DNA of 64,000 nt from NCBI GenBank assembly GCA_000467715.1, contig AJFK01000394.1, forward strand, positions 1 through 64,000. The letters run 5' to 3'. This document shows positions 13,322 through 54,402 of this stretch, one piece after another (the stretch's first letter is position 1; every line of letters begins with the position of its first letter). Source of the DNA: Hysterium pulicare CBS 123377 (taxonomy: Eukaryota > Ascomycota > Dothideomycetes > Hysteriales > Hysteriaceae). The notes beneath the pieces were generated by a model that saw only the letters and a program-made list of their open reading frames with translations, searched no databases and was not told the origin of the DNA. The position numbers were made by a program, and so were the translations under genes.

Positions 13322-14661
13322 TCATTTCATCGATAGTTCTCCCCATTTTTCTTCACCAAGCAACCCTCGGAAAGAAGCGATTTCAAACTCTTGGAAGTCC
13401 TCTAAGGCCATTTTTGTGAGCACCTTCTCAAGCTGCTTTGTCAGAGACAATGTCCTGAGGTGAGTGATGAGAAGTTTCAATTCTTCGGTCTGTATTTCCG
13501 CTCCATAGCTGAAGATCCGTCTTTCCCACTCTGAGGGCTGCATGAATCTCATGAACCAAATTGCAGGGTCAAGAATCTCTGTGGCGATGGTTGAGAGCAC
13601 ATTCTGCCGCATCCAACGATTTACCCCAGAAAGCTTTTCAAGGGAATCAATAAGGAAAGACATCTTATTCTCGGGGAACTTAGGAAGTGGACCTAGCGAT
13701 AGAGGATAGTCGTTCTGCCCTAGCTGCTGCCCAATCCGGACAATCAACGCAGTGTGTTCTGGAACGTCGCAAGTCCCAGAGATTGTGTCTGACTCGACCA
13801 ATTTTTTCAGCATAGCCTGACATATCTGACCCTTTTGGTCACTAGCCATTTCGTATTTGCTTTCAAGATACCTCACCAGCTGATCTTTATTGCTGTTGGC
13901 AAATCTGTATTTGCCAAGCCAATAACACGACTGGAAGGCGGATTGATTACAGCGTGGCACCAGGACTAGTACTGAGTTTCTGTACCAATCTGAAGTAAGG
14001 ATAGTGTTCTCATGTAAGTCGAGGAAATTTACCAATATTCAATACTCTCACCTTCGTTTCCAGTAAAGCCAGAGTAGTCATCTTCATCTGGGCGTCTGGA
14101 GAAAGATTGCTCCTGAGCAATTTGCGACTCGATGACAGGAACACGACCGTAATATGGATCTCCATTCAAGGTAACTACTTGCTTCAAGATGGTCTCGTCT
14201 TCAATGAGCATATCAGGTTCAATGGGATGAAAGTCAGCATCATCATTCGAGTCGAACGGGAATGTTCCAGCTTCAACATGTTTTCCCAACAGGGCGAGAT
14301 AAGTTTGAAGCCCCAAATCCATGCATATTTGCTTCAAAACGCTCGCTTGCGCGTAGTCGTTTCTCTTAAGCAATTTGTAACTAAGGTTCTTCTGGCTGTA
14401 CTGATGTTCAAGAATGTACGCGAGAAAGTATGGCTTTCTTGGACCTTGAGATCCAATTTGCCGGGCCTGTAGCGCTTCTGCGACTCTGGCTATTGAGGTG
14501 GCGGAGGCGTCCAAATAGCCCGTCCTGGGGTCCGACGGATCAGGATCAAGAAAGAAGTTCAGTGCAAAACATGCTCGTCTTATTTGGAACGACAAACGCA
14601 ACGCCTTAGTCATGTTTAGCGGTGAAGGAGAAATGACGTTGATAGAATCGCGAAGCCACAT
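13322..14661 (-). CDS. 2OG-Fe(II) oxygenase-family C-terminal-like protein, catalytic half not seen
   Basis: Minus-strand exons 14661-14052 and 13989-13322 encode 425 residues. Splicing joins FTGNE to DWYRNSVLVLVPR. Together with YILEHQYSQKNLSYKLLKR, QTYLALLGKHVEAGTFP and the TGNE-WYR-VLVLVPR block, this matches the region that follows the dioxygenase domain in fungal proteins annotated as 2OG-Fe(II) oxygenase or prolyl 4-hydroxylase-like. The iron- and 2-oxoglutarate-binding jelly roll (HxD...H...R) is not present in the 425 residues, and I did not find it in the 570 bp upstream on this strand. Either the gene lost its 5' half and now starts at the internal ATG at 14661, or the start is elsewhere. 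The remaining frame is open over its whole length. Family assignment is from motif memory and is moderate. Confidence 0.55.
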
Positions 14662-15231
14662 TCTAGCGCGGCGGCCACCCTTTAGCCCGCTTTTGTAGAT
14701 TCATCCCTGTCACAAGTGAGCGATGGGTTTGGACCTTCGTATACGATTTCATCGTCTCACCCAAAAGAGTATAATGAAACCCATTTATCTTTCACCTTTA
14801 CTTCTTTGTACCTAATCGCTACCACACGATCTTCTACTCATATACCTACAACCAAATTTATCGAACCAATTTACACATCTATATAGATCAATAAGTAAAA
14901 TGGATTGTGTTCCTAGCGGCGTTAAGTTGGCCGAAACAAAGGAATGTCACATATGCTCACTGTACCTCCTCAAAGAATTTGGGACCGAGTAAGGTCACCA
15001 AGAAGTTAGCGCTGTACAAACAATACAACCATGGCTGTTTTCCCGATGATGCCTAGCTTAGTAAAGTGTGTATGAAGTAACAAAGCTAGCTCTGATCGGA
15101 CATTAAAGATGTCGTGCGTTCAGCATTATGTGAATACATATGTGGAACGCAAGAATCCTGAACCTGTCGAGTTACCACACCTGACGGAACCCGCCTAGAT
15201 CAAAAGAATAGCATAGTGTCGACGGCTCCCC
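14662..15231. other. Intergenic stretch
   Basis: Upstream of the 2OG-family-like gene. I looked here for the missing oxygenase half on the minus strand and did not find it. Nothing else was recognised. Confidence 0.5.
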
Positions 15232-15981
15232 TCACTTCTTATTTCTTTCAAGTTGTCGTTCCAGTTCAGCGATCTCATCGAGGTCCTTCTTTGTAACATT
15301 TGTATGAGTCTTCCTGAAGCTAAAACCCGTGAGTAAACTCCATCAATATATAGGGCAAGGGATACGCTTACTCGAAGAGTTTGAATAGATGATCTTTGAT
15401 AGCTTGAGCACATTCTCTCATATCCTGCTCGTTATCCATTTCAGCAACAGAGGCAGCAGTGACGGAAGTATCGCCAACGGTTAGCAACGCAGCTACAACG
15501 TAGCTATCGGCATTATGGTCCTTGTAGACTGGATGGTCTGCGATAGTGACGTCGTGCTTCGTTTCGAGAGTCGCGACTAGGTAGAAAGCCTCACTCTTCA
15601 AGTTCTCGCAAAGCGTCAATCCATTCTACAGAACTCTTTTCATCAACATCTTGACCTATTACATACAAGCGGCAAATTGCAATCAACGCTAGTAATAGCT
15701 ATGATACGTACCTGACAGTCTTTGACAACCTTCTGATCAGCCCATTCTCCATACTTGACTTCCTGTCGCGTCCATACATATCCCGATATCGCTTTCTCGT
15801 ATATCTGGTTACCGTGAGTGATCATAGTCTGAATGCTCGCTCTCAGCTTGTTGTTCGCGAAGATGCGGCGGGTGGTCCATTCTTTGAGTAGCTGAATTAC
15901 TTGGGCTTTTGTGCCTCGATGCAAATGCTTGGGTTGGTGGCCTTTGAGCCAGCGATCAAGGCGGGGTTTGGAGATGGGCAT
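15232..15981 (-). CDS. Conserved-looking hypothetical protein, 203 aa
   Basis: Minus-strand exons 15981-15712, 15625-15372 and 15319-15232 join in frame into 203 residues starting MPISKPRLDRWLKG and ending in a charged helix (TKKDLDEIAELERQLERNKK). Both introns have good borders, and the third exon gives a clean acidic-basic helical tail, which supports a real spliced gene. I do not recognise the family. The N-terminal third is basic and the middle is mixed alpha/beta in character (EAFYLVATLETKHDVTI, SYVVAALLTVGD). No signal peptide or membrane segment was seen. The frame is open upstream of the chosen ATG, so an N-terminal extension starting further upstream is possible. Confidence 0.65.
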
Positions 15982-16317
15982 TCTGGGTGGGTTGGTGTGT
16001 TTTGCAAAAGGTGTGGTCAGTGGAGCTAAACGTCTCTCTGTTATATATACGGTGGATGATTTATTCACGATGAAAGTCATACCGCGTGGGATCATGAGAC
16101 TACCCCAAGGCAAGTGAACGGATTGCGGTTATGCTTCATCACCGAATCATAAGAGGACGTACACCAGGTCAATGGTTATGTTTGCCAATGTATGTTCTTT
16201 CAATATGAACTTCCTATAATATTCATGATATCGTATGCAACGCTGTTCGTTCATCATGCATCAATTTTCATACAAAACAACCCAGGTCACACCTCACCGC
16301 ATCAACATTCCCCATTA
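15982..16317. other. Intergenic stretch
   Basis: Region between the hypothetical gene start and the SKI3 3' end, both on the minus strand. Nothing recognised. Confidence 0.5.
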
Positions 16318-19300
16318 TTACTCAATCGCTTCCTCGACAGCATGCCAGCTCTCTTTAGCCCAAGGCGCTAGTACCACCGATCGTTGTGCATCGCCCAAAG
16401 TGCCAGTCCCCGCAAAGGTTTTCGAAAGCTCTGTGGCCCCAACTTCCCCATTAGGTGGCACAGTTCTCTGAGCCGTTTTGAGCGCCATCATAGCCGGGAA
16501 ACCAACATCCTCTGCGTCAATTCCTGCCAGCTGCGACCAATCAACAGCTTTCCAAGGCGCAAGCATGACGCTTCTCTTGATCTCCTTCTCTTTTGCCTCT
16601 TCACCTCCCGAGATGACTGCAATTGCATCCAGTACCTTTTCTACCCTCTTTAACTGCATTTCATCTAAGCCCGATTTCGTCCTGAGGGAGCTTAAGTCGT
16701 CCTTCACAGCATCCATGGTCTCCAAATCTTCTTCCAATGCAGCCATAGCACCTAGAAGCACAACAGCACCTACATGATCTGGGTGCTTTTCTACGCAAGC
16801 GAAAAGTTGCTCACGGGCCACGTCCTTTTCGTTTTCGCCTCCCTTAGCCCATAGTACCTCAGCTAGAAGACAGATAATATCCGGCGCGGAATTGCTTTCT
16901 TCTAGAGCAGTGCGGAAATCGGATATAGCGGCGTCCATGTCATTGAGATAGTAGTGCGATAAGCCTGCTGTTAGTCTCGCCGAAAGTCGTGTTTTCTTCA
17001 ATGTTGAAGCAGTCATAGCAGGAGAAACGGAGTCGGGGTCCAAAGTAAGATCGAGAGCAGTTTCGGCGGCCTCAACTGCAGAATCGTAGGCGTTGGATGC
17101 GAGAAGATTGCGTGCAAGATCTGTTTTTCCTTGTGCGAAGCGGGAAAGAGAAGACGCGGATTCAGTGTTTTCGTATTCAGCTTCTGCGGCGTCGCAGATA
17201 GAAGTGAGAGCCGAGATGGCAGCATCATAATTGGCGACCCGTTCAAGATAGAGCGTAGCGAGATGGTGGTAAGTGATATCTGAGGGTTGTTGGAATGAAA
17301 GTTGATGAAGAGCGAAAAGTGGTTGAATTAGACGGGTTATGTCATTTGAGGCTGACGACGAGGAAATGAGGTAGTCAAAGGTCGACAAAGCATATTGGCG
17401 TTTGGTGACTAGCGATGCAGAATCAGACAGCTCGAAAGCATGCGTGAAATGTGAGAGTGCCTCATTCGAATCGCCATAGAGAAGAGCTATGATGCCTTCC
17501 CCAACCCAAGCGAGAGCATAGTCTGGATCCGTCGATTGAGCCCGCGAGAAGGCCATATGCGCAAGCTCCGAATCATTTTGTAATAGATACAAAGTTCCAA
17601 GGTTGGTCCAGGTCCGTACACTCCTCTCATTTAGATGAAGACTACGGACGAATGCGTGCTGAGCGACCTTGGGATTCAGAGTAGTAGTAACGACTCCTAG
17701 AGAGTTCCAGAATTCGGAGTTGCCTGCTTCGAGCTCGATTGCCCGCTTGAAGCATTTTAGAGCTGCTTTTAGGAATGTTGTGGGCTTTTTCCCTTCCGAA
17801 GGCTGTTCAAGGCAAACGTGCGCGCGATGCTCGGTCCATCCAAGATTATACCACGCCACTGCTTGTGCGTGGACATCGTGCGCGCAACTAAGAATTGCCC
17901 GTTTCTGTGCAAGAATGGCAGCTTGCAGGGTACGTGTGAGAGTTGAAGATCTGTCTCCCTCATCCACAATCAATGCCTCCAGCTCGGAGGCTCCAATACC
18001 ATCTGCATCCCTGTGTAAATCAAACTCCGCAACGTTGAAGTCTTTCCGTAAAAGCTTTTTAAGTGATTCCAGAGGGGCGTCATCTAGTCGTTCTTGGACC
18101 CAGGAAAAAACAGAGGAGGCGTCCCCGACCGCTTTCCAGATGTTGAAAGCTCCAGGTTTGTATTCTACGATACCTGTGGCTACTTCGACTGCTCGATTGG
18201 CGCTATCCGCGGCAGCGCCAAAGAACCCGGTCTCGATGCATTTCCAGGCTTTCTCTGTCAATGCTTGTAGTAATGCTATGGAGACGCCAAATTCTTTTGA
18301 TCGTTCGGTCAAAACTTGTTCATAGCCTTGGATGGCTATATCAAAATCACCAAGCTCACGGTTGACGTTCGCTAGCATATACTTGGTAAACCAGCTCTCC
18401 CCAGACTTCTTCATTATGATGCCTCCAGTAGGGTTTTCGGCATAATTGAAGGTCCTTGCTGCCGAGTTGTATCGTCCAGAGTTATGGTAGCTCTCTCCAA
18501 GGCCGACGTAAGAGTGATAGTCATCCGGGCTGATGCGAAGCGCGGACAGGAAAGACACGATGCTCTTCTGATATTCCTGTTTATTCATCTGAACAACTCC
18601 AAGTGCGGAGAAAGGCCAGCTCACGCCCTTCTTCGATTTGGACCCTGGCGCGGGACGAACTTTTCCTGAATCGACAACTCGCTGTGCGATCACCTCCACA
18701 ATGTCCCAATCACCCTGATCCGCAAAGTAGCGGGCAAGGCGTTCGGCAGCTATTAGCTCTGAAGGAGACAGCTCAAAGGCTTTCTGGAAGCATTGTCTAG
18801 CTCTCTTCCTATCTTTCTTGTAATCTTCGTAGAAGATACCGAGACCTGTATATGCAGGCCCAAAATTAGGGTGGGCTTTGATAGAAGCAAGAAATTTCGA
18901 GTAAGCACCCTGGCGGTCTTTTCGAGCTGATGGAGAGGGGTCAAGCTCCCAGATACAGATACCAATGCGATACAGCGTTTGGGCTTTGAGCTCCCTGCCA
19001 CGTAAGGTTGATGAATCCATTTGAGGATAATCAAGATACTCCTTAAGCCTAGAGAGGCCTGTAGTATAGTTCCCATTTAGGGCTTGACACCATGCTGCTT
19101 CTGCACCGATACGACCATTCGAAGGATCCTGTGTCAAAGCCTGTTCCAAAAACTCAATTGCCTGACTGTATTCCTCCTCCTCTTCAAGAATGAGACCTAT
19201 TCCTATCAAGGCTGGCGTGAAGGTAGGCTTTCTCTCCAAGATTGATTGGAAGATTTCTTTCGCTTCCGGGTGGTTTTTCGGAGCTTGATAGTAAATCAAT

Positions 19301-19853
19301 GACGTTGCAAGAGTACTGTTGAGAGCGTCACGTGGTCTAATGAAATCGTGAGCAGAATTGGATATGGTGAACCCTTCGAGGTTATACCTTTGAAATGTAA
19401 GATCAGTCTTCAGTGCCTCGGCTGCAACCAACTTCAGGCCTTTTCGAGTGATCTCGACAGCGCTTTCATGCTCCTCTAGAAAGAGATAGTATTCACCGAG
19501 CAAACGATGAGCTAGTATCGAGTCTTTTGCCTCGTCTACACCTTCCTACCATGAACAATTAGCTTTAGTGAAAATTATATGGCGAACTGCATCCACACCG
19601 TCATAAGGACTAAGCAGTCTTCCGGGGTGATGGGGACATCTTCTTCCAGCGCCACTCCGCCCTCGCTCAAATCAGGTGCTTCCTTGGCACCGGCCGTGAG
19701 AGGAAACTGAGATGCTCCGCTGCTTAAGTAACCCTTCAGAACTTTTGATAGGCCATTTTCGGGGAAGAACTCTGTGAATTCGCGGACGACGCCGATATCG
19801 AATCCGTGCAAATCCTGGGCCCCGTCAAAGCCGGGCCCAGTTTGGTCGCTCAT
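16318..19853 (-). CDS. SKI3: Superkiller protein 3, C-terminal part (SKI3 split by inversion)
   Basis: Minus-strand exons 19853-19599 and 19545-16318 give 1160 residues. The intron joins EDCLVLMT to EGVDEAKDSILAHRLLGEYY, a typical fungal Ski3 join. The protein is a long array of tetratricopeptide repeats covering the middle and C-terminal arms of Ski3, the scaffold of the cytoplasmic Ski complex (Ski2-Ski3-Ski8) that feeds mRNA to the exosome for 3'-5' decay. The first about 270 residues expected of Ski3 are missing and lie on the opposite strand at 20180-21081. The ATG at 19853 adds nine residues (MSDQTGPGF) before family sequence begins at about DGAQDLHGFDIG; those nine come from beyond the inversion breakpoint. 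The frame is open throughout, so a shortened protein could be made. Confidence 0.9.
19815..19840. repeat. 8-bp inverted repeat spanning the left inversion breakpoint
   Basis: CTGGGCCC (19815-19822) and GGGCCCAG (19833-19840) are perfect inverted copies with a 10-nt spacer. The left SKI3 breakpoint (about 19822-19826) falls at the edge of this potential hairpin. Confidence 0.7.
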
Positions 19854-21072
19854 GCTGTACAGATGCCCGATAATACAACGATTGAAAGGACTCGTAAAGA
19901 AAGGACCGAATAGAAAGAGTGGACGCCCTGGCTGGCGGCAGAATCAATTCCGATGATGTGGTGTTTGTCTGCCGCAGGGCTGACATTGGCTTCTGGTCCG
20001 AGCGTCCGGATTGGCGCCATCTCGTTTCGAGGCCAACTTGGAAAGAAACCTCACACTCATTCATCTACCTGGGTACTCATTCACCTGGTATTCTTATGCT
20101 TCATAAATGACCACGATGGATCTCATGACACGTCAGTACCCTTATAGCTAATCCTATCTTACTACCAAATCCATGCAACATGTCCACGAAAGCGGGCCTC
20201 AAGGCCGCAAAGGCAGCCATCGACTCTAAAAATTGGGATGATGCCGTAACGCAAGCAAGTCGCGTCCTAGAATCCGACCCGCAGAATTACTTCGCGTGAG
20301 CGCATTATTTCCTGTCGGTGCTATCCATGTAGATCTAACAAGTCAACTCAGGAAGCTTTTCCTAGGCCGCGCTCTCGACAAGCAAGGCAAACCAGACGAA
20401 GCTGCACAAGCATACGAATCAGCGACGAAGATAAAACCAGACGACGACCAAGCATGGCTCGGACTGCGTAGTTTATACGAATCGCAAGGTCCCGCAAAAG
20501 TCGATCAGTATATCCCCGTGGGACTGCGATTGGCAGAAATATACGCTGCAGCGAATGATGCACATCGCGCTCAATCAAGCATTGACAAAGTCGTTGACTT
20601 GGCACGCAAAAGCGGCACAAAACCTCAATACGCACGCGCTCTTTCAATTCAGCTTCCTACAAGTCCCATATACTCCTTTCTCGAAGGCCGTCTCCCACAT
20701 CCTTCCCTCACCTATACCCGCATTGCCGACATAACAGAATCCCTCGAAACCGAGCGCATAAACAAGGAAATTGGGAATCGGAAAACGCGGCTCGGTGCTA
20801 GGATTGGAGAAGTTACAACGGAGGTGAAGAGGGAAGTATACAGTAAAAGCGAACTGGAGGGTTTATATCAGAACATCATCGATTGGACGTCTGATGACGA
20901 AGTTAGGAGAACATATGAGGAAAAGTTATTGCAGAGGGCGTATGATACGTTGCTGGTACTGCCGACGGGCCACAAAGCGGAAAAGAGGGAGCAGGTGATG
21001 AAGTTGGCGCATGGGATGGTTATCATCAAGCACCCCTATTTGCTAGCTTGGCGGATTGAGATGGAATGGAAA
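19827..21072. other. Inverted segment (about 1.25 kb) that splits SKI3
   Basis: Flipping this segment restores one continuous minus-strand frame: EWKDG from the plus-strand half runs straight into AQDLHGFDIG of the minus-strand half. The edges share CCGTC at 19822-19826 and its complement GACGG at 21073-21077, so the exact cut is ambiguous within 5 bp. The segment contains the SKI3 N-terminal coding region and its 5' flank, so the old promoter now lies between the two halves. Confidence 0.85.
19854..20179. promoter_or_regulatory. Shared intergenic region between the diverging SKI3 halves
   Basis: This 326-bp stretch was, before the inversion, the sequence just upstream of the SKI3 ATG. It still abuts the ATG of the N-terminal half (20180), and its far end now abuts the new ATG of the C-terminal half (19853). 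That it drives transcription in both directions is inference; no specific element was recognised. Confidence 0.45.
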
Positions 21073-21081
21073 GACGGATGA
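20180..21081 (+). CDS. SKI3: Superkiller protein 3, N-terminal part (SKI3 split by inversion)
   Basis: Exons 20180-20295 and 20352-21081 encode 281 residues, beginning MSTKAGLKAAKAAID as Ski3 proteins do. The first TPRs follow (DWAxxA-like pattern: SKNWDDAVTQASRVLESDP; GRALDKQGKPDEAAQAYESA). The last family residues are EMEWKDG, after which a TGA is met three bases past the breakpoint. In yeast Ski3 the N-terminal arm is one of two TPR arms of the complex; alone this piece would be a short TPR protein lacking the Ski2/Ski8-binding body. The original promoter and start context appear to have travelled with it. Coding quality looks intact, with no internal stop and good splice sites, so the split is either recent or tolerated. 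Confidence 0.88.
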
Positions 21082-21364: not shown

Positions 21365-21937
21365 TCACACACCCAAAACCCTTCTCCTCTCATCAGCAGA
21401 GAAAATGCTTTCCCCATCTTTAAGCGCTTGGATAAGGACAGGTAGACTCCGCTCGGTGAAATCCTTCGCTTGCCTCACCTGGTCAAGATCATCTGCCAGC
21501 TCAGCGGTCACTTTTCGCAGGTAAAGAGATGAAAAGTCTTCCGAATGTTTCGTGGGCTGAGGTGACGCTTCTGGAGTTTGATCCAGGACATCTAGCTCAT
21601 TTGCTTGAGGCTCGGAAGATTCGTTCGCTTTTTTCTTTTTGCGAACTTCTGGCGGTGGTTGAGGAGGCTGTATTTTCATTAAAATGGCCTCAGCGGGAAA
21701 CAGATAACAGAAGCCATACCGTTACAGGCGTCCTCTTTACACCTTTCGATCTTTGCTGCGGCTTGTCGCTTTCGCCCTCACTACTCGAAGACGAGGAAGA
21801 AACTTCGGATATAATTAGTCAATGGATTCACTTCACCCATTCAGCTAGAAGAACTCACCTTGCGTGCGCGCCTTTCTTTTCCTCGACCGTTTCGGTTTCT
21901 CTGCGGCAGCTTTTCGTTGTTTCGCGGGTGCTGCCAT
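21365..21937 (-). CDS. RSA3: Ribosome assembly protein 3
   Basis: Minus-strand exons 21937-21859, 21802-21720 and 21667-21365 encode 154 residues. The N-terminus is Lys/Arg-rich (AEKPKRSRKRKAR), as expected of a nucleolar protein, followed by a Ser run and a Pro/Lys linker. Residues about 101-150 carry the Rsa3 domain: SSLYLRKVTAELADDLDQVR, then KDFTERSLPVLIQALKDG and a final FSADERRRV. Rsa3 associates with pre-60S particles and is needed for efficient large-subunit assembly in yeast. Length matches the family. It reads away from the inverted SKI3 segment; the right breakpoint lies about 0.3 kb past its stop codon. Confidence 0.88.
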
Positions 21938-49621: not shown

Positions 49622-52600
49622 CTACTCACCACCTCCTACCCCGTGCCCAACTCCACTCCCAAAAACCCCATCGATCCTCCTCTTCCGATCCCAAACAACC
49701 ACCCCATCAATCCTCCGCCTAAAATACAGAATCCGATGCTGAGGGATAAACTCCTCATCCGTCTGCTCCGTCTTCCACCTCTCCAGGCTGGTCTCCTTGG
49801 CACCTAAAAAGCGATCCTCGTAGCCTACGATGAAGTCAGAAGGGTCGAGCGCCGGGTCCCAGCGGAGGCGGTTGAGGATGTCGGAGGCTGGGCGGAGCTT
49901 TTTGGTCGAAGTGAGTTTTAGAGTCGACGAGGGGATGCGTAGTTTTTGAATGGTTTCGGGAAGGTCGTCGCCGAGGGTGTCTTCGGTCTCGTCTTCTCCA
50001 TCTTCGTCGTCCGAATCGGAGTCGTCGACTATGTAATCTCCCCATTCTCGATCGTCAAGCCTAACGTCTCCGATCTCGCTCCGCTTTATAACATCGATAC
50101 CGATCCATGAAGTGGAAGGATCGTAGTACTTCTCTTCGGTAACCAGTTGGTCTTCAAAGCGCTTCAGCGTCTTCATTAATGTGTCTTTTGCCACCTGACG
50201 GTCTGATTTAGTGGTCTGGGATTTCTTGTTCGCGACTTGTGATAAGCCGATGAGGTAGTATCCATGATAGTCTTGCTCCGTTTCTGCTTCGGGGGTATGC
50301 TTCGTGAATCTAGCAGGCCAGATGCGGATGTCAAGCTTCGGTAAAGCTTTGTTGATGTCTAAGTAGTTGATAAGCAGAGATACAAAGTAAGTTTGAAGAG
50401 GAAACCAATACTTACCAACTACAAGAGAAAGACATCTTGATTCCAGCCATCCCACAACACTCTTCCCTTTAGCCTGTGTGCGACCCCAGTACTGTAAATC
50501 AATCCTCACATAATTATCGTACGACGACAGGAATTCTCGAGCTCCAGTCGGTAATGACCCCTTAAATTCAGAATGGCCGACAGACTCCCCAAAGAACTTA
50601 GCCCAGGTCATCCCATCCTCGGACAATCGAAAATCAGCAAGACTGAACTCTTTGACCAGAGTATTAAGACCAGGGACGGAAGACGTATGCGCTACATTGG
50701 CGTTCGGCGCATGGAATCCAAGTATGACCATCTGTTCTCGTGCGGATCTTTGGTATCTTGGGCGCTTCTGGTGGAAGAAAGGATCGAAGACCATGTCATT
50801 CCTCCAATCGAAATTGGCGTAGTGGTGGAAGAATGTGGTAATGATATCTTCAGCCGTCACCGATCCAGCTTGGTGCGCCATGCGCTTACAGATCAACGAT
50901 AGCATCAAGGTGATGTGAATTCCGCCAAGATAGCCGAATCTGGAGGAATAAAGGCCGCGCTGGGATGCCCAAAGCTTGATAGATCGGTAGGCAAGACGGA
51001 ACGCAACGATGTCCGGCAAGGTTCTTTGGATGTAGTCGAGGTCTCGGAATGGTTTCGACTTTCGTAGTGAGAGCATGGGCGAGTTAGAAAATGACGGGTC
51101 AGAGTGCGGAAGCTGAGAGATTTCAGGCCACCTTTCTACCACTCGTGCAGCCGGGCAGTACTGCAAATCCATGCTAATACCATTAATAGATAATTCCAAC
51201 ATTGTTCCTGAGTTCGCTTCCACTTTTCGTAGAATTCGGGCTCCCAGGTTTGCAGCTTTGTTGATACGTTGTCGTGCGAGCAGGAAGAAAGTTTTTGAGC
51301 TGATTGGACCAATACACAAGCAATCAATATCCGACACTGCGGTCCATACGCCGAGAGCATACGATCCAACTGGTACGACGATCATAGGGAGATCGGGTTT
51401 ATTAGTATCAGCATACCCACAAATGATGGATTTGATAAGGCTGAAAGCATCCTTTCGTCGTTGGATTTCATTTGCTGTAGGGAACATGTCATGCTCCGCA
51501 AGGACTGCGCTCAAGGAAGAGATCGTGGATAAGCTGGCATGTGCTGGTTGGAATTGAAAGGGAGATAGTTTCGCGATATCCATTTCATTCAATGGCATAT
51601 TAGAGTAGTCGGTACAGACCTTCATTGTCGCTCGTATGCCTGAATGATCGCTTGCGACTACCTGGCCCTCAGGCGCAGTGAGATCAGGAAGTCCAAACAC
51701 GTTGAACGTAGCGATTCGTAGAAGACCGTCACCTTTCACAAGTATTCGATCGTATCTTTGTGGTCGATTGTTGGACGTGCCCGATGTTGCGGCTGCCAAA
51801 GGATTCTCGCGAGGATTATAGGTAGCCCCGTCTTCTCCTTCAAAGAGATCATCCGAACTCAGAAGACGCGAAAAATGGTCGGTGTCATCGCCAGCCTCCA
51901 CACGGGCAGTAGACCACGAGTCGAGTAACCCCGCTTCGAACATCATTGTCTCTATCCCAGAAAGTGTTTTGACTGTCTGAGCCGATATGGATTTGCTCTT
52001 CAAAGCTGTATCGATGGTGTACGAGGATGTTGTAATATTGAGATCTCCTGCTACGATCCACGGATTAGATGGATAGGTCCTGGAGAGATATTTCAGCAGG
52101 TTCTGCATCTGGATCTTCTTCGCAGCAACGGAACCATCAGTCAAACCGCAGGTCAGATGAACTGCCGCGACTACCAATGGCCGAAACTCAGAGTCTCCTC
52201 TTTTTCCGATGTTGTCGAAACGTGCAATGACTGCGCTTTTATGCCTTCGATGAAATGGTAACTTAACCCAACTGAATGCATATCGGCTCAGTATCACAAT
52301 ATTTCGTAAGCTTGGAAGAGGCATAATATCAGGCTGACAGGGCGGACCGTGAGACGTGAATGGGTAGCATGTCTGGATAACCTGGTCATTGAGTATGTAT
52401 GACAGAAAGCCATCAGAAACCTCTTGCAGAACTAGAACATCGGCCAGGCTGGAATTTGAACGCAGATTCTCGATGAGAATCCAATCTCGATCACGGGCAG
52501 GTGGATGTTCAGAATCGATGAGAACATTATAGCTTGCCACCCTCAAGGAGCTAGGCAGTCTCTCATCATTCGACATTCCGTTCGATGACTGATACGGCGC

Positions 52601-53392
52601 CCACCTTGCGGAGACGGTTTCGATTCGATACGTTGTTCCGGGTTGTACTGCAGTGCTGGTAGCTACGGTAAATATCTGTCCGTCCAAACCAGAGAGTTCT
52701 TCATCTAAGTCCCGCTCGTCTTCTAGTTCATTAGCTGCCGTTGTTTGGTCCAAGTGGTCCTTGATCCAGAATTCTGATGAAGCCAAGTTCCCCGGCGAGG
52801 ACCTTCCCGAGATATCTATCATATTCCAAAGCTTCATTCGACTCGCCGACTTGTCCTGGCTAGGTATCCGTTCGCGTACTAGGATCGCGAGGTTCTCGAC
52901 TCCAAACTCGAAATTGGGTAGAAGCTTCGCTTTGCCCAGCAAAAAGTCCCGGGAAGAAACACCCTGGTCTTCCGATTGTCCAATGGTAAGATGAAAATGG
53001 CACGGCTCACGAGGCTGGCCGAGAGCCTCCAGAACTGCGCCTCTGAGGCGGTCCAAAGAATTCCCCTCATCTGAATCTTTCTCACATACGTAGATGGTAT
53101 GGCCGTGGCGATGAGTAAAGCATCCAGAATCGTTCAATGAAACTCGTAGATCGCCATGGAGGTCAGGCAATTGGGATTGAAGGATGTTTCTCGCCCGCGG
53201 TAGGTTTTCGGGAGCCACAAAGGGATAGACGAGGTTGATATGAGGAGGCCATTTTCCATATGCTTTGTCGTACAATTCGCGTAGGCTATCGAGACCATGG
53301 CAGGAGTTTGCTGGCGGAATAATGCAAAGTGCAGTTTCGTAGGAAGTGATCCCGATTTTGCAAGCGGCCGATGCAGGTGCAGTCGCCGCCAT
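49622..53392 (-). CDS. Four-domain RNA end-processing/repair protein: 2H phosphoesterase, EEP nuclease, poly(A) polymerase fold, MJ1316 domain
   Basis: Minus-strand exons 53392-50416 and 50358-49622 encode 1237 residues. Domains in order: (1) 2H phosphoesterase/2'-5' RNA ligase-like, about 15-175, with H51 (PHINLVYPF) and H134-x-T136 (CHFHLTIG); (2) endonuclease/exonuclease/phosphatase, about 280-595, with N289, E324 (LVLQEV), GDLN at 449-452 and SDH at 581-583; (3) poly(A)-polymerase-type nucleotidyltransferase, about 630-1000, with GS at 676-677, D688 and D690 (SDIDCLC), D742, and the central helix block KLWASQRGLYSSRFGYLGG; (4) MJ1316/DUF504, about 1135-1235 (ILNRLRWDP, DFIVGYEDRF, EEFIPQHRILYF). 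MJ1316 has been proposed to recognise cyclic-phosphate RNA ends. Every catalytic residue looked for is present. The 57-nt intron is frame-neutral but has strong borders and interrupts the family sequence. Cleavage, trimming and re-extension of damaged RNA ends is inference. Confidence 0.88.
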   Translation of the reverse strand: MAATAPASAACKIGITSYETALCIIPPANSCHGLDSLRELYDKAYGKWPPHINLVYPFVAPENLPRARNILQSQLPDLHGDLRVSLNDSGCFTHRHGHTIYVCEKDSDEGNSLDRLRGAVLEALGQPREPCHFHLTIGQSEDQGVSSRDFLLGKAKLLPNFEFGVENLAILVRERIPSQDKSASRMKLWNMIDISGRSSPGNLASSEFWIKDHLDQTTAANELEDERDLDEELSGLDGQIFTVATSTAVQPGTTYRIETVSARWAPYQSSNGMSNDERLPSSLRVASYNVLIDSEHPPARDRDWILIENLRSNSSLADVLVLQEVSDGFLSYILNDQVIQTCYPFTSHGPPCQPDIMPLPSLRNIVILSRYAFSWVKLPFHRRHKSAVIARFDNIGKRGDSEFRPLVVAAVHLTCGLTDGSVAAKKIQMQNLLKYLSRTYPSNPWIVAGDLNITTSSYTIDTALKSKSISAQTVKTLSGIETMMFEAGLLDSWSTARVEAGDDTDHFSRLLSSDDLFEGEDGATYNPRENPLAAATSGTSNNRPQRYDRILVKGDGLLRIATFNVFGLPDLTAPEGQVVASDHSGIRATMKVCTDYSNMPLNEMDIAKLSPFQFQPAHASLSTISSLSAVLAEHDMFPTANEIQRRKDAFSLIKSIICGYADTNKPDLPMIVVPVGSYALGVWTAVSDIDCLCIGPISSKTFFLLARQRINKAANLGARILRKVEANSGTMLELSINGISMDLQYCPAARVVERWPEISQLPHSDPSFSNSPMLSLRKSKPFRDLDYIQRTLPDIVAFRLAYRSIKLWASQRGLYSSRFGYLGGIHITLMLSLICKRMAHQAGSVTAEDIITTFFHHYANFDWRNDMVFDPFFHQKRPRYQRSAREQMVILGFHAPNANVAHTSSVPGLNTLVKEFSLADFRLSEDGMTWAKFFGESVGHSEFKGSLPTGAREFLSSYDNYVRIDLQYWGRTQAKGKSVVGWLESRCLSLVVGKYWFPLQTYFVSLLINYLDINKALPKLDIRIWPARFTKHTPEAETEQDYHGYYLIGLSQVANKKSQTTKSDRQVAKDTLMKTLKRFEDQLVTEEKYYDPSTSWIGIDVIKRSEIGDVRLDDREWGDYIVDDSDSDDEDGEDETEDTLGDDLPETIQKLRIPSSTLKLTSTKKLRPASDILNRLRWDPALDPSDFIVGYEDRFLGAKETSLERWKTEQTDEEFIPQHRILYFRRRIDGVVVWDRKRRIDGVFGSGVGHGVGGGE

Positions 53393-54402
53393 GATACAGG
53401 TACTCAACTGGGTATAATGCTAGAAAAATTAATGGGTATAGAAGTATGTACAAGAAGAATCTCTCTAGAACCAGGGTGAAAATGAAATTCTTCGTCTATG
53501 GAACAAATGTAACAACGAGACTCCACCTCTCTTATTAATACTCTATATCGTGAATAGTGCATCAGCCACAAACCAATAAGCCCATACCTATTTGGAGATA
53601 TCAATTTCGCTAACGTGACTCCTCCGTACTGATGAGCCTCATAGTTGTTTGTGACTCACTTACAGGCTGCACGCTGCGCCACAATTCGGTTGGCAGCTCT
53701 ACAACTGAAGTCTTAGCGCAACAACCGAAGTGTAAATCGACTACGGAGTCAGCTTCAGTCGTGTTCCAATATTAGTGAGTGTGTGTCATTCGCGAGTCGA
53801 TGCGTACAATGTGCAGGAGTCAGAGCATTAGGTTGTCAGAGCTGTGGAGGCGGGTTGCGCCGTGGTGGATTTTCGGTCCGTGCACGTTGCGCACATGACT
53901 TTTCAAATATATAATGAACAACCTATTAAATGGCCTATAGCAATCTGCCGTAGTATCCAATGGAAATAGGCTTTACAGTAGCTAAGATAAACATGGTCTG
54001 CAAAAAAAAGCTTGCCCTTTACCCTTGTTGACGGCAGATAGAACGGTAGAGACTGTGTATTTACCCACCACTTCTCCCTCCCCAGCTGTTTCAAGAGGGG
54101 CATAATGAAGAGATGAAGAGGAAGAATAGGGGCTGAGTTTTGGGCTCTGAAGAGAAGTATGAGTGGAACCAGATGCAATGAACTGAAGAATACTATCCGG
54201 CAAGGGCAAACAGCATAGAACTAGTAATAAATGCTAAGGATAAGATGATATATTCACAAGCCTTCATCATTTAATTTACTCTCGTCCATTCAGATCCACT
54301 CTACAGTGATATATATCTAAGCACACACTTATCATGACTAACCAACTTCAACTATCTCTACCTAGCCTCCTTCTCCCAAACCACAAAGATAGTTCTCCCT
54401 CA
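53393..54402. other. Intergenic stretch
   Basis: About 1 kb including the promoter of the RNA-repair gene and the 3' flank of the sugar transporter. No feature recognised. Confidence 0.5.

Follow-up and report, generated by a model that had tools for sequence, protein, structure and literature searches.

SKI3 is encoded as two divergent half-genes in Hysterium pulicare, with the same split in a clade of Dothideomycetes

The 64,000-nucleotide stretch of the Hysterium pulicare CBS 123377 genome analysed here (contig AJFK01000394.1, positions 1 to 64,000; hereafter the window) encodes SKI3, whose product is a subunit of the Ski complex, as two divergent half-genes and not as one chain. The N-terminal half (N-half) and the C-terminal half (C-half) read outward on opposite strands from a 326-bp gap (Table 1), and the same break is found in related fungi that form a single clade. 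We consider it probable that one small, old inversion split SKI3 and that both products still act as two subunits of the Ski complex.

Neither half resembles a pseudogene, as internal stops are absent and the introns have GT-AG boundaries, in line with the initial annotation of this DNA, which had claimed clean splice sites and zero internal stops. That annotation had also assigned the 281 N-terminal residues of Ski3 to the plus strand, where we recovered the same gene model, and about 1150 residues to the minus strand, a claim that holds for location but not for length, which falls to 1143 residues once a missed intron is removed. The length of this intron (C-half intron 2) is divisible by three, hence the plain reading frame passes through it; its 17 in-frame residues are absent from the aligned proteins of relatives, as judged by eye, so we read them as the second intron. 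Together the halves amount to 281 + 1143 = 1424 residues, compared with 1416–1434 in five intact relatives (1425 in Macrophomina phaseolina).

The N-half carries a TPR_22 domain (PF18833, E=1.5e-30) along with TPR_19 and TPR_16 in Pfam, aligns to residues 5–293 of yeast Ski3 (whole-sequence E=3.2e-26) and has its closest homologue at E=8.3e-148. The C-half, whose top homologues score E=0, matches proteins of ~1140 residues over 97–100% of its length, several of them named Superkiller protein 3. At the position of C-half intron 1, an apparent GT donor following LM[TA] could be seen by eye in four intact-type relatives (P0101, P0102, P0106, P0107); with intron 1 at this site, a retrocopy origin of the C-half, which we had considered, is unlikely.

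Table 1 Features of the SKI3 locus and its convergent neighbour in the window.
Feature	Position	Strand	Details
SKI3 N-half gene	20180..21081	+	exons 20180-20295 and 20352-21081 (stop included); 281 aa
N-half intron	20296..20351	+	56 nt, GT-AG, contains CTAAC
SKI3 C-half gene	16318..19853	-	exons 19853-19599, 19545-19388 and 19336-16318; 1143 aa
C-half intron 1	19546..19598	-	53 nt, after ...LVLMT
C-half intron 2	19337..19387	-	51 nt, GT-AG, in frame, stop-free
C-half leader MSDQTGPGF	19827..19853	-	new; precedes DGAQD, which carries on the ancestral chain
Stretch separating the start codons	19854..20179		326 bp; presumed bidirectional promoter
Proximal inversion breakpoint	19822..19826	-	GACGG
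Distal inversion breakpoint	21073..21077	+	GACGG, inverted copy of the proximal one
RSA3 (ribosome-assembly protein 3)	21365..21937	-	convergent neighbour of the N-half; exons read by eye

The geometry of the locus is that of an inversion. A scripted reversal of positions 19827–21072 yields ...AWRIEMEWKDGAQDLHGFDIGVVREF in frame and restores one open chain, ...EWKDGAQDLHGFDIG..., reproducing the claim of the initial annotation that this flip fuses the halves in frame. Its further statement that nothing was lost or gained is nearly right: there is no loss, but the pentanucleotide GACGG (Asp-Gly) is present twice, at both breakpoints with each half keeping one copy, and the C-half starts with a leader that is new. 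In one crude resampling, a 5-nt match between the breakpoints has a chance level of ~1%, and the repeat may represent microhomology or the fill-in duplicate of a staggered cut; no longer inverted repeat was found at the breakpoints with a repeat finder (seed 9, minimum 12).

The same junction is seen in the proteins of the 41 split taxa of our tree, described below. In all 41 the N-half overruns the last intact pre-junction column by 1–13 residues (7 residues in 30 of the 41, a single Gly in the window), and the C-half begins 7–11 residues ahead of the first intact post-junction column (7 residues in 29), each with its own Met leader. By eye, the junction lacks none of the residues of intact Ski3, and the halves share about two residues there.

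Among the best 120 of 154 proteins homologous to the N-half, 107 stop no more than 20 residues beyond the EW of the last helix, 86 being complete from start to end; of the remaining 13, at least eight (P0087, P0090, P0097, P0101, P0102, P0106, P0107, P0108) continue past the junction and look, by eye, like intact-type proteins truncated further on. The best 120 of 1386 C-half homologues, tallied by hand, comprise 85 proteins that start at the junction without an N-half (80 with and five without the DLSEGG-type motif described below), eight of intact type (P0207, P0210, P0211, P0212, P0215, P0227, P0228, P0234) and 27 fragments starting further downstream, from which the type cannot be told. 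Two of the 85 (P0135 and P0216) have ~85–100 extra upstream residues that are not N-half, and inspection of these residues revealed no signal of gene orientation.

Split forms come from many Pleosporales (the order of most of the genera), from Lophium and Lepidopterella in the Mytilinidiales and from Glonium in the Gloniales. The six listed proteins of full intact length all belong to named fungi outside these three orders: Macrophomina, Diplodia, Neofusicoccum and Aplosporella, which we take to be Botryosphaeriales, as well as Patellaria atrata (Patellariales) and Coniosporium apollinis (incertae sedis). In the taxonomy of the National Center for Biotechnology Information (NCBI), the Venturiales, Jahnulales, Hysteriales and Aulographales share a subclass with the split orders. 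A maximum-likelihood tree of 47 taxa, made up of the window, 40 of 43 assemblies in which both halves were listed and six intact taxa, groups the 41 split taxa as one clade against the intact ones with an ultrafast bootstrap of 100, and places the window beside the Pleosporales (support 100), apart from the Mytilinidiales and Gloniales. The initial annotation had placed the inversion in this lineage; the geometry that it described stands, while the split belongs to a large clade and is not species-specific. The main Pleosporales radiation has been dated, in the part of the study drawn on here, to 133–97 million years ago with few early lineages sampled, and the class to more than 280 million years (PMC3516569). 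This dating makes an age of more than about 100 million years probable for the SKI3 split.

The two halves have also stayed linked. In 41 of the 43 assemblies with both halves listed, the longest contig has the same size for both, which we read as the same contig, a measure that gives neither strand nor exact distance. Of the two exceptions, the C-half entry of Alternaria rosae stands for a cluster of 15 members, yet the locus tags of its halves are consecutive, and the entries of Boeremia exigua derive from different assemblies. Six further contigs, between 10 and 54 kb (10248, 10489, 14749, 30131, 50168 and 53929 bp), were paired likewise by eye. Locus tags are consecutive in 4/4 same-strain pairs with positional tags, namely Alternaria rosae, A. 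dauci, Plenodomus lingam and P. biglobosus.

Both halves are under continued constraint. On a fixed tree, total branch lengths within the split clade are 7.396 for the N-half and 8.240 for the C-half (N/C 0.90), compared with 1.816 and 1.657 outside it (N/C 1.10); correspondingly, the N/C ratio of mean pairwise distances is 1.11 in split and 1.23 in intact taxa, a ratio of 0.90 with a 5–95% range of 0.78–1.01 over 60 bootstrap replicates. Since the N/C rate ratio is not raised in the split clade, the N-half shows no relaxed constraint and has not been left to decay. Its last helix (residues 250–280) is the best-kept stretch in the 41 split taxa, with a mean column identity of 0.884, compared with 0.793 and 0.774 for the other two stretches and 0.796 for the whole N-half. 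Leu257, Ala258, Met261, Val262, Ile264, Leu270, Ala271, Ile274 and Trp278 are invariant in 54 N-halves (the window and 53 of the 120 listed proteins), a pattern that would be expected if the cut faces still meet but that falls short of proof.

These halves are also the only SKI3 material detected in the genome (37.2 Mb in 596 contigs): either half had a single matching site in a search that scores the best candidates of a possibly incomplete assembly, and the Ski3-type TPR_22 domain occurs once. An intact second copy elsewhere, which according to the initial annotation would have marked the halves as a dispensable duplicate, was thus not found in the genome search. The Ski2 partner is represented by one Ski2_N domain (E=1.8e-38) with a DSHCT domain ~3 kb further along the same contig; a second DSHCT helicase locus presumably encodes Mtr4.

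In addition, most split forms carry a motif that intact relatives lack. PDLSEGGVAL occupies C-half residues 60–69 in the window, at the site of the former acidic linker, which is variable in intact relatives. The pattern DLSEGG[VI][AS]L is present in the window and in 80 of the 120 listed C-half homologues, and in none of the eight listed intact-type proteins; it is absent from Glonium, Lepidopterella and Lophium, the last having a partial EEGGVSL. Most simply, the motif would have arisen after the split, on the branch leading to the window and the Pleosporales, and it could serve as a docking motif.

Alignment to yeast Ski3 maps the break to Asp293/Tyr294, ahead of the acidic linker and within the N-terminal arm of tetratricopeptide repeats (TPRs). 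The human SKI structures, as far as covered by the part of the report cited, leave the N-arm (TPR 1–8) flexible and unmodelled, with the C-arm, the Ski2 N-terminus and two Ski8 copies forming a gatekeeping module (PMC8860381); in a human exosome–ribosome assembly, SKI7 is described at SKI3 TPRs 29–30 and the 40S subunit at TPRs 39–40 (PMC11540850). Both contact sites are in the C-arm. Given that the human gatekeeping module and these contacts sit in the C-arm, the cut would spare the core and free most of the N-arm, which may explain why the split was survived.

The two halves are orthologous to the two corresponding parts of yeast Ski3 (PDB 4buj, 8q9t, 8qca, 8qcb) and human SKI3/TTC37 (7qdr, 9g8o), and yeast Ski3, including its residues 388–1378, can be aligned with the intact relative P0210 both before and after the break. 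Whereas yeast Ski3 (1432 residues) and human SKI3 (1568–1589 residues in PDB entries) are single chains, the window encodes two chains from two genes. The intact relatives (P0210 Macrophomina, P0212 Diplodia, P0211 Neofusicoccum, P0228 Aplosporella, P0227 Patellaria atrata, P0234 Coniosporium apollinis) are homologous throughout and differ in being single chains that read EW[RKT]DVE... across the break, with the acidic linker in place of PDLSEGGVAL, the junction region being alignable; five of them have 1416–1434 residues, and P0211 has 1791 because of an LDB17 domain fused in the gene model. Judging from these likenesses, the pair should function as Ski3, in the form of a two-chain variant.

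We therefore propose the following course of events, starting in an ancestor of the Pleosporales, Mytilinidiales and Gloniales. A short local inversion, its two breaks 1.25 kb apart, would have cut SKI3 at the codon matching Asp293 of yeast, within the TPR arm of the N-terminus, turning round the promoter together with the N-half and leaving the promoter between both pieces. If this promoter worked both ways, both pieces would have been transcribed at once; the C-half would have acquired a start codon with a short leader, and the N-half a stop beside the cut. Most likely, both products were retained and meet as two non-covalent subunits that replace one Ski3, with the C-half predicted to hold Ski2 and Ski8 as the scaffold arm and the N-half to dock, as a mobile arm, on the first C-half helices. 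This corresponds to the third option of the initial annotation, halves working as two subunits, which appears to be the best of its three.

Several observations weigh against this proposal or soften its support. The orientation of the halves is known in the window only, so the inversion could postdate the split, and two leader types exist among C-halves: the window shares M..Q...G[FL]DGA[QA]D with Glonium, Lepidopterella and Lophium, and in the Pleosporales MASH...AHD prevails. The GACGG repeat is only suggestive after such a time and proves little. Protein numbers of paired halves in the DRAFT style of the Joint Genome Institute (JGI) are mostly non-consecutive (for example BDV95DRAFT_498859/596662); such numbers are not known to be positional, and these pairs were left uncounted. 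The ancestral neighbourhood of SKI3 is uncertain, given that the LDB17 domain, a probable neighbour in Neofusicoccum (see below), lies on another contig here. Conservation of the last N-half helix need not reflect docking, as it is also well kept in the six intact taxa (0.812, with 0.796 for their whole N-half), while N-half residues 141–249 are slightly less uniform in split than in intact taxa (0.774 against 0.815), as are the helices at the start of the C-half (0.826 against 0.846), values from 41 and 6 taxa that are not directly comparable.

The first of these points leads to the rival that SKI3 was split by another route, for example by the rise of a stop codon together with a new promoter, giving tandem halves, and that the N-half was inverted later, perhaps in some lineages. 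The gene order of Dothideomycetes appears, from what is cited here of a comparative study, to have been rearranged by many inversions (PMC3516569), a point in favour of a later flip. A search for the SKI3 DNA of relatives returned, among genome contigs, one weak match to a metagenome-assembled genome of Phycisphaerales (31% identity, query 642–775) and, among viral contigs, none. This history needs two events, and it leaves the ends of the reversed piece coinciding with the protein cut, and GACGG at both ends, to be accounted for; we regard it as unlikely, though worth keeping in mind.

The inversion might also have taken place as proposed, with the N-half leaving the Ski complex for a separate job. 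The flexible N-arm, unmodelled in the portion of the human work cited above (PMC8860381), may indeed be separable, but the helix that would face the C-half is the best-kept stretch of the N-half, the N-half has stayed linked to the C-half, and it shows no shift to faster change, making a departure from the complex distinctly unlikely. We find a head-to-head duplication of SKI3 with loss of opposite parts improbable: it would give the same divergent layout but should leave overlap or loss, and at the junction about two residues are shared and, by eye, none lost. Trans-splicing of two transcripts into one Ski3 would make use of the in-frame fit of the halves; as the window has no GT from the EW codons to the stop of the N-half, and hence no canonical donor, and as every C-half of the 41 taxa has a Met leader, it is very improbable. 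An assembly error or a very recent event in one genome, both options of the initial annotation, has nothing in its favour beyond a single genome in 596 contigs and is hardly credible when the same break appears in 107 and 85 of the two sets of 120 listed homologues, as separate proteins from independent assemblies and in many genera of the Pleosporales, Mytilinidiales and Gloniales.

The single small inversion thus being our preferred explanation, we turn to the surroundings of the locus. In all five named split taxa that an RSA3 search returned (Zopfia, Delitschia, Lepidopterella, Glonium and Plenodomus tracheiphilus), the contig with RSA3 equals that of both halves in size, the other five of its 10 matches, Venturia nashicola, Tirmania nivea and three unnamed ones, having no listed SKI3 contig for comparison. 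Because of this agreement in 5/5 taxa, RSA3 and both SKI3 halves appear to make up a long-standing block. In the Neofusicoccum protein P0211, residues 1 to ~365 correspond to LDB17/SPIN90, fused ahead of Ski3 in the gene model; in that fungus SKI3 probably has LDB17 as its upstream neighbour on the same strand, and in H. pulicare the LDB17 domain is found at G000:C171:99572-99985. To the left of the C-half, four minus-strand frames (15643-16128, 15368-15625, 14029-14700 and 13322-14038; region 13322-16128) had no match in Pfam at an E-value threshold of 0.01. Further away, a 1265-residue minus-strand frame at 49622-53419 combines 2'-5' RNA ligase-type 2H, endonuclease/exonuclease/phosphatase, nucleotidyltransferase, poly(A) polymerase central and MJ1316 RNA-end domains, and looks like a multi-domain RNA end-processing protein.

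Known systems provide partial parallels. In a published case of gene fission, at least in the portion of it considered here, a gene was likewise broken into parts with inversion named as a possible cause; its main text does not contain the term SKI3, and the SKI3 parts described here differ in staying linked and in being kept across orders. Frequent intrachromosomal inversions have been inferred for Dothideomycetes (PMC3219968, PMC3516569), and the inversions of this mesosynteny could supply the SKI3 event; the sections cited describe the phenomenon at the level of gene order, and a gene cut and kept as two is not described in them. No published SKI3 split of this kind was found among the papers listed by full-text searches, a scope that leaves out most subscription journals, and novelty is accordingly unproven.

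For the biology of these fungi, the split is a tidy example of how a single small inversion can yield two functional neighbour genes, in a class with inferred frequent inversions. The N-half of ~287 residues is often annotated as a hypothetical protein, so that a likely subunit of the Ski complex goes unrecognised in many genomes. A natural cut kept for so long marks a break-tolerant site in the scaffold and delimits a separable unit that takes in most of the N-arm, useful to define in view of the unmodelled N-arm in the human structures, as far as the cited part of that report goes (PMC8860381). More speculatively, and with considerable doubt on our side, the N-half might be a separately made, exchangeable regulatory subunit, a clade-wide detachable Ski3 arm kept for ~100 million years or more, docking via the cut TPR surface and perhaps via a linker motif, PDLSEGG[VI][AS]L, that was newly fixed, so that binding of the arm could be tuned alone. 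If this is true, the cytoplasmic RNA-decay gate of a whole clade would run with a detachable Ski3 arm.

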